Below are positions 46,279 through 50,781 of a DNA stretch of 64,000 nt, one piece after another. This DNA is from Halopseudomonas sabulinigri (GTDB lineage Bacteria; Pseudomonadota; Gammaproteobacteria; Pseudomonadales; Pseudomonadaceae): NCBI GenBank assembly GCA_011053055.1, contig DRHT01000001.1:1-64000 (forward strand), given 5' to 3'. The notes under the pieces were generated by a model. That model ran no database searches, was not told the DNA's origin, and worked only from the letters and a program-made list of their open reading frames with translations. How positions within the stretch are numbered: the first letter of the stretch is position 1; every line of letters starts with the position of its first letter. Made by a program: the position numbers and the translations under genes.

Positions 46279-47430
46279 TTAGGGATTGCTGTCGCGCAGC
46301 GGCAGAACGACTTCGGCCTCCACGGCCAGCTGACGTACTGCTATGTAACGCTCACTGCGGCGAGTACGATCCATCACCTGCCCGACTAGCTGGCCGCAAG
46401 CGGCGTCGATATCCTCGCCCCGCGGAGTCCGTACGGTGACGTTATAACCAGCCTGATGCAACATATCCTGAAAACGGCGAATGGCATTATTACTAGGCCG
46501 TTCGTAACCAGAGTGTGGGAAGGGATTGAAAGGAATCAAGTTGATCTTGCAGGGAATATCGCGCAACAACTCAATCATTTCAGCCGCGTGCTCCGGCAGA
46601 TCGTTAACGTCCTTGAGCATCGTGTACTCAATCGTTAGCGAACGCTTCTCGCCCAGCCCTGAGATGTATTTTTTGCAGGCGGGCAACAACACTTCCAGCG
46701 GGTACTTCTTGTTCAATGGCACCAACTGGCTACGCAGCGCGTTGTTCGGCGCGTGTAAAGAGAGCGCCAGTGCGACATCGGTAACTTCACCCAGCTTTTC
46801 AATCATTGGCACTACGCCCGAGGTAGACAACGTCACCTTGCGCTTGGATATGCCATACCCCAGGTCATCCATCATCAACAGCATTGAGTCGACGACGTTA
46901 TCAAAATTCAGTAACGGCTCACCCATGCCCATCATCACCACGTTGGTCACCGCGCGATCCATCGTGCCGGGCACTGAGCCGAACGACTTGTTGGCGATCC
47001 AGACCTGACCGATGATTTCGGCCACGCTCAGATCACTGTTGAAGCCTTGTTTGCCGGTCGAGCAGAAGCTGCAATCCAGCGCACAGCCCGCTTGGGAAGA
47101 CACACACAGAGTGCCCCGCCCGTTCTGCGGAATGTACACAGTCTCTACGCAACTGCCCGAGGCAACCCGCACCACCCACTTGCGTGTGCCGTCGCGGGAT
47201 ATATCTTCACTGACCACTTCAGGACCACGAATCTCAGCGCAGACCTTGAGCTTTTCGCGCAGGACCTTACTGACATTGGTCATCTCATCGAAGTTGTCGA
47301 CACCATAGTGATGAATCCACTTCATGATCTGGCCGGCGCGAAAACGCTTCTCTCCCAATTGCTCGAAGAAAGCTTCCAGTTTCTGCTGTGTCAAACCCAG
47401 CAGATTGGTCTTGCTGGTTGCATTGGTCAT
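46279..47430 (-). CDS. rlmN: 23S rRNA/tRNA adenine C2-methyltransferase RlmN
   Basis: RlmN is a radical-SAM enzyme that methylates C2 of A2503 in 23S rRNA and A37 of some tRNAs. The 383-residue protein has the radical-SAM cluster motif [14 protein letters not shown], the SAM-binding [12 protein letters not shown], and two catalytic Cys regions ([10 protein letters not shown] and AACGQL). I prefer the ATG at 47428-47430; an in-frame GTG three codons earlier (47437-47439) is an alternative, and neither has a strong ribosome site. It requires a [4Fe-4S] cluster. Confidence 0.97.
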
Positions 47431-47468
47431 GGCGATCACATCACTTGGTTAAACAGGTGAGAATAAGC

Positions 47469-47900: not shown

Positions 47901-47945
47901 GTAACTCTCCAGACAGTGTTTTTGAATTGAAATGATAAAAGATGG

Positions 47946-47972
47946 TTAACCTGCGGATTATACGCAGGTTAA
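47946..47972 (-). promoter_or_regulatory. Perfect inverted repeat around the ndk -10 element
   Basis: TTAACCTGCG-N7-CGCAGGTTAA is a perfect 10-bp inverted repeat whose centre, on the minus strand, carries TATAAT (inside GCGTATAATCCGC). A weak -35 (TTATCT) lies 18 bp upstream. The hairpin could also end iscS transcription, since a T-rich stretch follows (ATCTTTTATC). Promoter, operator and terminator roles may overlap. Confidence 0.55.
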
Positions 47973-48016
47973 AGACAAATAGATAACCACGGAACAGATC
48001 CCGACTGGCGGCGAAC

Positions 48017-49171
48017 TCAGCCCGCGGAACGCAGCCGATTTACTACTTGGCAGATGACCTCAGCAGCGCGCACTACATCCTCCTCGGAGGTGAAACGGCC
48101 AAGCGACAGGCGTATGGAGCCGTGTGCCAGCTCATCGCTTAGTCCTATGGCACGTAGCACGTAAGATGGCTCAACTGCGGCAGAGGTACAGGCAGAACCA
48201 CTGGAGAGCGCAAGATCCTTGAGCGCGAGCAACAGCAATTCGCCGTCCACTCCCGAAAACGCCAAATTCAGGTTGTGCGGCACCCGCGCCTTAGCAGAAC
48301 CATTAAGCAGCACACCGTCCAGCCCACCCAGCCCGGCCATCAAAGTATCGCGTAAAGCCTTGATACTTGCCGTCTCAGACTTGATCAACTCACCAGCCAG
48401 TTCGAACGCCTCACCCATACCGACAATTTGATGGGTCGGCAAGGTGCCGGAGCGCATGCCGCGCTCATGACCACCGCCGTGGATCTGCGCATCCAACCGT
48501 AGCGGCAATCCGCGCCTTACAAAAAGCGCGCCCACGCCTTTGGGGCCATAGGTTTTGTGTGCGCTGAACGACATCAAATCGACGGGCAACGCCTTCAAGT
48601 CAATCTTCAGCTTACCGGTCGACTGCGCAGCATCTACGTGAAACAGAATATTGCGCGCATGCGCTACATCGCCAAGCGCGGCAATATCGTTAACTGTGCC
48701 AATCTCATTGTTAACGTGCATCAGCGATACCAGAACCGTATCGTCACGCAATGCTGCCTGCAGCTGATCTGGCGTGATTACGCCTTCCGCGCCTGGCTGC
48801 AGGTAAGTTACCTCGAAGCCTTCGCGCTCTAGTTGCTGGCAGCTGTCGAGCACTGCCTTGTGTTCAATTTTTGAGGTAATGATGTGCCGCCCGCGTCCGG
48901 CAAGGGCATGAGCAACGCCCTTGATGGCCAGGTTATCGGACTCGGTGGCGCCTGAAGTCCAGACAATTTCCCGAGGATCGGCACCCACAAGGTCAGATAC
49001 CTGCCGGCGCGCCAACTCTACCGCCTCCTCGGCCTTCCAACCGTACACGTGCGAGCGCGACGCAGGATTGGCAAAGTTGCCGTCCAGCGTCAGGCAAGCC
49101 ATCATTTTCTCTGCCACTTTGGGATCGACGGGCGTGGTGGCCGCGTAATCGAGATAGATAGGTTGCCTCAT
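48017..49171 (-). CDS. iscS: Cysteine desulfurase IscS, lacking the usual C-terminal tail
   Basis: IscS is a PLP enzyme that takes sulfur from cysteine for Fe-S clusters, tRNA thiolation and other thio-cofactors. The 384-residue protein aligns with E. coli IscS without gaps up to the end: PLP lysine K206 in SFSAHKTYG and active-site C328 in [14 protein letters not shown]. It stops about 20 residues earlier than the 404-residue E. coli protein, and that missing tail is the part known to contact IscU. The sequence after the stop does not encode the tail in another frame. Its neighbours iscR and iscU-A-hscBA-fdx are absent here. The gene sits 9 nt after cysE in a trmJ-cysE-iscS run. Confidence 0.95.
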
Positions 49172-49180
49172 GTGATCACC

Positions 49181-49999
49181 TCAGCGTGCAGTGGAGTCGT
49201 TATTGCTGGCACTGGCAGCCAGCTCAGATTCATCCTTCAACAGGTCGAAACCCTCGCCACCGATGGCCGGCAAGTCTTTAGCGCAATAATCGCTCCCCAA
49301 CTCACTCAACGCAGCGCATATACCCTGCAGCCGACTGTCCACTGCCTGCATATGATCGAGCATTTGACCAATCGCACGCGCCACTGGATCTGGCATGTCA
49401 CGGCTAACGCCATACGCATCAAAACCCAGTTTTTCGGCCATGGCTTGACGCTTGGCCTCCTGCTGTTGATCCGCAGACTGCTCTGTATCCTTAAGAATGA
49501 TTCGACCGGGGATCCCGACCGCCGTCGCACCCGCGGGCACAGCCTTGGTAACCACAGCATTGGAACCGATTTTGGCACCAGCACCGACCGTAAACGGACC
49601 AAGGACTTTGGCTCCGGCACCGACCACCACACCGTCTTCCAGCGTGGGATGGCGTTTACCATGATCCCAGCTAGTGCCGCCGAGCGTGACACCCTGATAC
49701 AGGGTAACGTCATCGCCAATTTCTGCGGTTTCCCCGATCACCACACCAAAACCGTGGTCGATAAAAAAGCGTCGCCCCAGTTTAGCGCCTGGGTGAATCT
49801 CGATACCGGTCAGCCAACGCGCCAGGTGCGACACGATACGCGCCAGCAGAAATGCATTACGCACCCACAAACCGTGCGACAAACGATGCATCCAGACCGC
49901 ATGCAAGCCTGGATAGCAGGTCAGTACTTCCAGCGTGTTGCGCGCAGCAGGGTCACGATGGAAAACACTGGCTACATCTTCTTTCATGCGTTCAAACAT
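49181..49999 (-). CDS. cysE: Serine O-acetyltransferase
   Basis: CysE makes O-acetylserine from serine and acetyl-CoA, the first step in cysteine synthesis. The 272-residue protein has the N-terminal helical domain and the left-handed beta-helix with hexapeptide repeats, including [39 protein letters not shown] and [19 protein letters not shown]. Its product feeds cysteine, the substrate of the adjacent desulfurase. Two nt separate it from trmJ. Confidence 0.97.
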
Positions 50000-50001
50000 G
50001 C

Positions 50002-50781
50002 TTAACGTCTCCGCGCACCGGAGCCTATAGCTCCGATGGCCTTCTGGGTTTCGGTCAGGATACCGCGCAGGATGTTCACTTCCATCCGATTAACCTGAAT
50101 GCGTCCGTACAAACGGCGCAAGCGCGGCATCAACTGTCTTGGTTTTTGAGGGTCAAGGAAGCCGATTTCAACCAGCACCCGCTCAAGATGCTGAAAATAT
50201 TGTTCAAGCTCACCCGCCGTTGCCGGCGTTTCGTTGGGCAGTGCGGTGGTTTCAACCTTGCGCATCTTGGTCGGTGCGCCCGCGCGCTGCAGTGACTGCA
50301 TACGTAACTCGTATGCCAACACTTGCACTGCGGCACCCAAATTGAGTGAGCTAAAGTCTGGCATCGAGGGAATATGCACATGATATTGGCAGCGCTGCAG
50401 CTCTTCACTGGTTAGCCCTGCATCCTCGCGACCAAACACTATCGCAACTTGCCCGCCTTCCACTGTGTCCAAGCAATTCAGCACCTCGTCCGCTGCTTCG
50501 CGCGGATCTAGCACCGGCCAAGGAATGCGACGATCACGCGCACTGGTGCCCAGCACCAATACACAGTCCGCAATAGCCTCTTCCAGCGTTTCGACGATAC
50601 GCGCGCCTTGCAACACGTCTTCAGCACCGGCAGCGCGAGCGTTGGCTTGCTGATCAGGGAAGCGCACTGGATCGACCAGCACCAACTCATGCAAACCCAT
50701 ATTTTTCATCGCGCGCGCTGCGCCGCCGATGTTTCCAGGATGACTGGTGTTGACCAACACCACACGCACATTATTCAACAC
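50002..50781 (-). CDS. trmJ: tRNA (cytidine/uridine-2'-O)-methyltransferase TrmJ
   Basis: TrmJ is a SPOUT methyltransferase that 2'-O-methylates position 32 of tRNAs. The 259-residue protein shows the SPOUT knot motifs: [37 protein letters not shown] and [20 protein letters not shown]. The start is a GTG (50779-50781) with AAGG 7 nt upstream. It diverges from suhB and heads trmJ-cysE-iscS. Confidence 0.96.

Follow-up and report, generated by a model that had tools for sequence, protein, structure and literature searches.

Most likely a supplier of sulfur for tRNA modification: an IscS without tail and without IscU in Halopseudomonas

In the genome of Halopseudomonas sabulinigri we found a cysteine desulfurase gene, iscS, that stands at its locus without the other genes of the ISC pathway and whose product lacks the C-terminal helix that binds IscU. 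Across the sampled bacteria an IscS without its tail is paired with the absence of IscU, and IscS therefore now most likely supplies sulfur for tRNA modification, with another system building the iron-sulfur clusters. The reading we prefer, at a probability of about 0.75, is that this orphan IscS has left the ISC pathway and serves TusA-type acceptors, and that SUF builds the clusters. The switch from ISC to SUF in Halopseudomonas has been published previously (Lo Sciuto et al. 2024, PMC11559095). The SUF-only genomes of that account resemble the present one in encoding SufABCDSET without ISC, here with iscR in front; the retained IscS and its tail lie outside the section of that account consulted and are the subject added here. 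As far as we searched, the link between the tail of IscS and IscU is a new addition to the published switch, since no paper on it was found by title or beginning of the abstract in a search with thin coverage of subscription journals.

The iscS locus

The window, i.e. the whole stretch of 64,000 nucleotides that was analysed, carries iscS and its neighbours as follows.

50002..50781, minus strand: trmJ, flanking gene
49181..49999, minus strand: cysE (serine O-acetyltransferase), the gene immediately upstream of iscS
49172..49180, minus strand: cysE-iscS junction of 9 nt, the site of iscR in the ISC-bearing relative L061
48017..49171, minus strand: iscS, cysteine desulfurase of 384 aa without the C-terminal IscU-binding helix
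48017..48025, minus strand: 3' end of iscS, residues 383-384 and stop; E. coli-type IscS continues to residue 404
47901..48016, minus strand: iscS-ndk gap of 116 nt, the site of iscU-iscA-hscB-hscA in L061
47469..47900, minus strand: ndk, flanking gene, named from sequence alone in the first-pass annotation
46279..47439, minus strand: rlmN, flanking gene, named likewise

The iscS product aligned without gaps to residues 1-382 of E. coli IscS (chain 1p3w_B, 404 aa), so that about 20 C-terminal residues are missing, and it ends where the last helix and the tail of the E. coli protein start. The catalytic residues H104, Q183, K206 and C328 are all present and, together with the fold-length alignment, identify a type I (IscS-type) desulfurase; the helix 379-391 and the tail to about residue 404 that characterize the IscS of an ISC system are absent. 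Of the two NCBIfam equivalog models for IscS, the product passed the cut-off of NF010611 (612.8 vs 548) and stayed below that of TIGR02006 (602.6 vs 643.2). The first-pass annotation of this DNA had described an IscS of 384 residues with K206 and C328 kept and the tail missing, in agreement with the alignment, and distances of 9 nt from cysE and 116 nt to ndk, both of which we confirmed. It had further stated that iscR and the isc genes normally fill these junctions, and this is the order seen in L061, an ISC-bearing relative from the same order (trmJ-cysE-iscR-iscS-iscU-iscA-hscB-hscA-ndk-rlmN-pilF). Neither hscA nor hscB was found at the iscS junction.

The comparison across the genus that the annotation had proposed showed the same anatomy throughout. 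IscS is 383-384 aa long in 20/20 genus loci, the gap between cysE and iscS is -1 to 11 nt in 22/22, and the gap between iscS and ndk is 112-181 nt in 21/22, the remaining locus (L017) stopping before ndk; in these gap counts the iscS starts of L020 and L242 were extrapolated from the alignment. L021, a MAG with an interrupted iscS frame, was excluded. The closest named loci (77-78% identity) are labelled 'Gammaproteobacteria bacterium' and 'Pseudomonas sp.'. As iscS lies directly behind cysE, it is probably co-transcribed with the serine acetyltransferase gene and no longer follows iscR, and this position suggests that the supply has been joined to cysteine synthesis.

Iron-sulfur cluster assembly in the genome and the genus

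No match to NifU_N/IscU was found in the genome (99.54% complete, 66 contigs), and HscB was found in 0/37 genus genomes, single-contig ones among them; the E. coli control was positive in both searches. The genome also holds no second full-length IscS, the two other matches (28% and 32% identity) covering part of the query and one of them lying inside sufS. These searches uphold the claim that the ISC locus is reduced to iscS and, for IscU, HscB and IscS, rule out the relocation that the annotation had asked to be checked. That a full isc operon stands elsewhere in the genome, or that the short frame is an error, is hence next to impossible. The draft state of the assembly would leave some room for it, but the genome is nearly complete without an IscU match, HscB is missing from the single-contig genus genomes as well, and the same IscS end in 20/20 genus loci rules out a sequencing error.

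The annotation had treated the loss as a feature of this genome. The state itself is real but not peculiar to this genome, since 0/20 listed genus genomes have IscU. In the family sample IscU is present in 164/198 genomes and absent in 34, and all 20 IscU-less genomes among the matches listed (of these 34) belong to this genus; one further genome of the family sample without an IscU match, G135, stands outside the genus list. At the level of the order, a PF01592 match was obtained in 202/391 sampled genomes, and 189/391 had no NifU_N match.

The SUF-type system that the annotation had expected elsewhere was found on contig C50 as a complete iscR-sufB-C-D-S-A-T-E cluster. iscR, the loss of which had been implied, is thus present and stands before suf. 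The presence of sufB, sufC, sufD, sufS and sufE, along with sufA and sufT, in one cluster corresponds to an E. coli-type SUF system; sufA was named by sequence reading and position, with no NCBIfam match at 1e-30, and SufE scored below the cut-offs of both the SufE model (133.7 of 160) and the CsdE model (128 of 136.4). All ten genus loci read (C50 and loci of nine other genomes) have the cluster in the same order. SufB/SufD domains occur in 35/37 genus genomes and in 33/33 good ones, the two genomes without them being 75% and 79% complete.

Coupling of the tail with IscU

We compared IscS and IscU in 160 genomes of the order, each with an IscS. Sixty-five have both the tail and an isc-type IscU, and 95 are without isc-type IscU. 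All 65 isc-type-IscU genomes carry a tailed IscS aligned to residue 403-404, whereas in 94 of the 95 others IscS measures 379-394 aa; the remaining genome, G315, has a full-length IscS (404 aa) whose tail has diverged. The sample, queried with a 404-aa Pseudomonas IscS, consisted of 80 genomes without a PF01592 match and 80 taken as having one. The former were the part examined for IscS (80/187) of a pool of 187 genomes derived from numbering gaps in the match list (189 tallied). Two of the latter (G026 and G035) lay outside the PF01592 survey; iscU was later seen beside their iscS, in G026 within a full isc locus.

Within the second 80 genomes 65 were tailed and 15 tailless. Of the 15, eight carry a long NifU-like frame (254-368 aa) and a second NifS-like desulfurase, the other seven gave weak matches (E 1e-7 to 1e-21), and iscU was not seen next to iscS in any of the 15; we scored them as being without isc-type IscU, a call made after the tails were known. 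NifU-like frames of 254-368 aa were seen in G457, G304, G373, G272, G377, G449, G316, G463 and G529, and the second desulfurase in all of these except G529. The weak match of G238 goes back to an iscU truncated where the contig stops. Another weak match (E 7.8e-21) comes from G401. At this locus (L334, 1926-3457) a tailed iscS is directly followed by an iscU that is short and diverged, at 56% identity over 102 residues, and iscA, hscB and hscA were not found in the 7.5 kb read, up to ndk. G401 was retained as IscU-bearing among the 65, and its isc locus may be decaying. The 404-aa IscS of G315 (L184, 4428-5642) occurs with no IscU match; its genus mate G270 has IscU, and G315 may have lost IscU recently. 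In G243 (L185, 2986-4176) an IscS of 394 aa has a short tail remnant.

Counted by locus, iscU is present in 54/54 tailed loci examined. Among 80 named loci, many of them from Pseudomonas, 74 have tail and iscU, six have neither and none is mixed; in one of the six tailless loci (L307) the contig stops 160 nt past iscS. Both states occur within each of nine families (f1, f14, f16, f22, f26, f34, f36, f37 and f41). The proposal of the first-pass annotation that gene loss and tail loss go together is therefore borne out in the 160 genomes and the 80 named loci, and an annotation rule is suggested by which an IscS ending near residue 384 predicts that isc-type IscU is missing. The coupling matches what is described for E. 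coli, where IscS without residues 376-404 shows a lack of IscU binding according to the text of PMC2854127 and where Table 3 of the same paper gives the binding as 'Low' for IscS without residues 374-404.

Residues of the partner faces

The following positions of iscS were compared with residues of described function.

49016..49039, minus strand: codons 45-52, TusA-binding face with W45, E49 and E52 (D52 in E. coli), kept; roles from PMC2854127
48554..48556, minus strand: K206, PLP lysine; role from PMC8300815
48224..48247, minus strand: codons 309-316, helix a8, IscU contact, with E309D, S312L and M315L in 20/20 genus sequences; PMC2854127
48188..48190, minus strand: C328, persulfide cysteine; role from PMC8300815
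48173..48175, minus strand: V333 (L333 in 50/50 tailed IscS); residue comparison and PMC2854127 Table 3

Many partners meet at the hub protein IscS, the faces of which have been mapped in E. coli (PMC2854127), and with this map of residue roles we compared 20 genus sequences to 50 tailed IscS. The three a8 changes and L333V are found in 20/20 genus sequences, and E309, S312, M315 and L333 are invariant in 50/50 tailed ones; F89 and K221 are also changed in 20/20 genus sequences and R223 in at least 18. Of the 170 columns invariant among tailed IscS, IscU-contact columns are changed in 5/13 cases in the genus as compared to 6/157 others (Fisher p 0.0004; all p values given here are raw, come from ten tests and relate to rows that share ancestry), and in 6/13 cases in the wider tailless group (p 0.0007). 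On the frataxin/IscX face the genus shows no excess (1/9, p 0.46), while the wider tailless group does (5/9, p 0.0007), and the ThiI face is not clearly kept, with counts of 2/8 (F89 and R223; p 0.09) and 3/8 (p 0.04), respectively. The TusA face has 0/3 columns changed in the genus and in the wider tailless group alike. W45, E49, D65, R220 and R237 are kept in 20/20 genus sequences; at position 52, E is found in 20/20 of them and in 50/50 tailed ones.

Compared to E. coli IscS (PDB 1p3w, 3lvj-3lvm), the enzyme thus shares the catalytic residues, the TusA-site residues (D52 as E) and a gap-free alignment over 1-382, but it has 384 instead of 404 residues, a changed IscU face, changes at some residues of the ferredoxin/frataxin groove and no IscU found in its genome. 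In E. coli, L333A brings the IscU-dependent s2C down to 20%, with mnm5s2U at 110% and s4U at 100% (PMC2854127 Table 3). The tail changes L386R and M389R left IscU binding of E. coli IscS intact (PMC2854127), and I314E/M315E left ferredoxin binding intact (PMC3750173). As these replacements are tolerated in E. coli, an individual substitution on this face carries little weight as evidence. Lineages without IscU serve as natural experiments that separate residues needed for ISC only from residues held by the remaining clients.

Sulfur acceptors and proposed function

TusA-family domains were found in 37/37 genus genomes. The present genome encodes two, one above the NCBIfam TusA cut-off (107.3 vs 78) and the other below it (51.3), and the residues of IscS that contact TusA (W45, E49, D52 as E, and D65) are retained in 20/20 genus sequences. 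The suggestion of the first-pass annotation that IscS could serve tRNA thiolation is consistent with the kept TusA-site residues, from which the tRNA role would follow. ThiI gave a strong match in 31/37 genus genomes and a weak one or none in six, three of which are 99-100% complete; the retention of IscS can therefore not be put down to ThiI in general. The three are G022, G010 and G188, and R220 and R237 are kept in the 20 genus IscS, those of G022 and G010 included.

We had predicted that frataxin (CyaY) would be lost along with its binding groove, and this prediction failed, with CyaY retained in 29/37 genus genomes and in 26/33 good ones. The CyaY encoded by G020 scores above the cut-off of NCBIfam (61.1 vs 53.25). 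In the genome studied here the gene lies on contig C42 (L322:5486-5788) beside lysA-like and dapF-like genes, which were named by eye. According to a survey of 2742 genomes from 2015, every prokaryote with CyaY also had IscU (PMC4440780), and the genus, in which CyaY is kept and IscU was not found, appears to depart from this rule. Binding and inhibition of SufSE have been reported for E. coli CyaY (PMC11446229), and by analogy such binding could explain why CyaY has been retained. If the result stands, the genus would be a place to examine frataxin action without IscU.

On our preferred reading, IscS is a predicted active type I cysteine desulfurase that would move cysteine sulfur onto C328, from where it would be passed to TusA, for the thiolation of wobble uridine and for other TusA-dependent processes, and perhaps also to ThiI in genomes that have it. 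Iron-sulfur clusters would be built by iscR-sufBCDSATE, which brings SufS-SufE of its own. Once IscU and HscB were missing as partners, the IscU face and the C-terminal helix would have been released from selection, the tail would have disappeared and the rest of IscS would drift faster. E. coli IscS prefers IscU over TusA (PMC11302665), which by analogy might mean that an IscS without IscU is free for TusA. More tentatively, and with rather more doubt than belief, we propose that the IscS tail of Gammaproteobacteria strictly reports the presence of IscU, that after loss of IscU the enzyme decays face by face to a TusA core, and that frataxin survives by moving to SufSE. If true, bacteria with frataxin and without IscU exist.

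That the tailless IscS still assembles clusters by feeding SUF (SufE, SufA or SufBCD), or apo-proteins directly, is improbable in our view; such a role has been proposed for Mycobacterium tuberculosis, where IscS also stands alone. The M. tuberculosis protein, which we take to be PDB 4isy and the structure description of which reportedly notes the IscU-binding extension as missing, is distant from the present one and belongs to another phylum (chain 4isy_A, 251 bits vs 556 for E. coli). It is similar in being the single isc-type gene beside a suf operon, and in the absence of other ISC parts it reportedly interacts with Fe-S proteins and assembles clusters in them (PMC8300815). A role in assembly would also be in line with the place of iscS in many relatives, where it is part of the suf cluster or adjoins it. 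The iscR-iscS-suf clusters of other Pseudomonadales are similar to the state described here in combining a tailless IscS with suf and no isc-type IscU, but there iscS and iscR are next to sufB, whereas in this genus iscS is with cysE, away from suf, and iscR stands before sufB elsewhere. This place beside cysE speaks against an assembly role, as do the dedicated SufS and SufE of the genome and the retained TusA-site residues. Further, E. coli SufBCD without SufS-SufE failed to rescue IscU-depleted P. aeruginosa (PMC11559095), a strain that presumably still has its own IscS.

Origin of the tailless state

The function proposed above would remain the same if the tail had not been lost in the genus but an older tailless, SUF-linked IscS had been inherited (or acquired), the tailed IscS of the other Pseudomonadaceae having come with the isc operon. 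Such a history is a serious possibility, which we place somewhat short of even odds. In the IscS tree, from which the tail columns were omitted, the genus is placed among tailless IscS of other families and apart from Pseudomonas, and the tailless IscS fall on one side of a branch (support 92/96) that is found in 95% of bootstrap trees; in this placement tree (77 sequences and two PDB rows) tailed and tailless were labelled by aligned length, with G315 counted as tailed. Another tree comprised 126/164 distinct sequences and two PDB rows, with 38 near-duplicates left out. Keeping the family as one clade lowers the log-likelihood by 44 units, but at p-AU 0.056 such a clade is not rejected, and without partner-surface columns and long rows the cost falls to 21 units (p-AU 0.134). 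Long tailless branches, together with the faster change seen in a Pantoea IscS (below), could draw such rows together. The older history gains from the iscR-iscS-suf arrangement at the same trmJ site in many relatives and from the Halopseudomonas lineages being called basal in PMC11559095. It is opposed by the flanking genes of L242 and L247, named relatives taken for the genus, of which suhB, cysE, ndk and rlmN are 76-83% identical to those of Pseudomonas; trmJ and iscS are 66% and 67% identical, respectively. Loss in this lineage, as proposed in the annotation, is thus one of two possible histories, and the IscS tree prefers a placement in the tailless group.

A separate case was found in Enterobacterales. 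Pantoea anthophila (L283, 5400-8609) has the order trmJ-iscR-iscS-pepB with no isc gene at this locus between iscS and pepB, and its IscS of 386 aa, which has a long branch, is placed with Enterobacterales (support 100/98) in a tree of 44 sequences, 21 named ones and E. coli (39 of those in the reduced-column tree). This IscS has a mean identity of 80.0% to five sisters, as compared to 92.2% among the sisters, and no such gap exists for the flanking suhB (86.0 to sisters, 84.3 among them), trmJ (84.0 and 80.7) and iscR (87.1 and 87.7). Low identity of IscS beside normal suhB, trmJ and iscR points to a tail that was probably lost, with IscS change sped up, in place. The tailless Pantoea IscS passes TIGR02006 (662.5), and its a8 and L333 residues inspected are intact; it departs from five Enterobacterales relatives and from E. 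coli at F89, R112, R225 and E227. In the literature searched we found no paper on Pantoea with isc operon, iscU and SUF. Judged by these residues, the pattern in Pantoea versus that in the genus hints at an order of decay of the IscS faces, which, if the face-by-face decay proposed above is true, would be the tail and basic groove first (Pantoea) and helix a8 and L333 later (this genus).

Two further arrangements were observed among tailless loci. In L168, L182 and L183 (f15) and in L151, L152 and L156 (f33) a tailless iscS adjoins an iscA-like gene with no iscU beside it. In L187, L188 and L190 (f25) and in L287 (Marinomonas rhizomae) the run of suf genes closes with sufA-sufT-sufE, immediately followed by a tailless iscS and then ndk, and in these four loci suf occupies the isc site.
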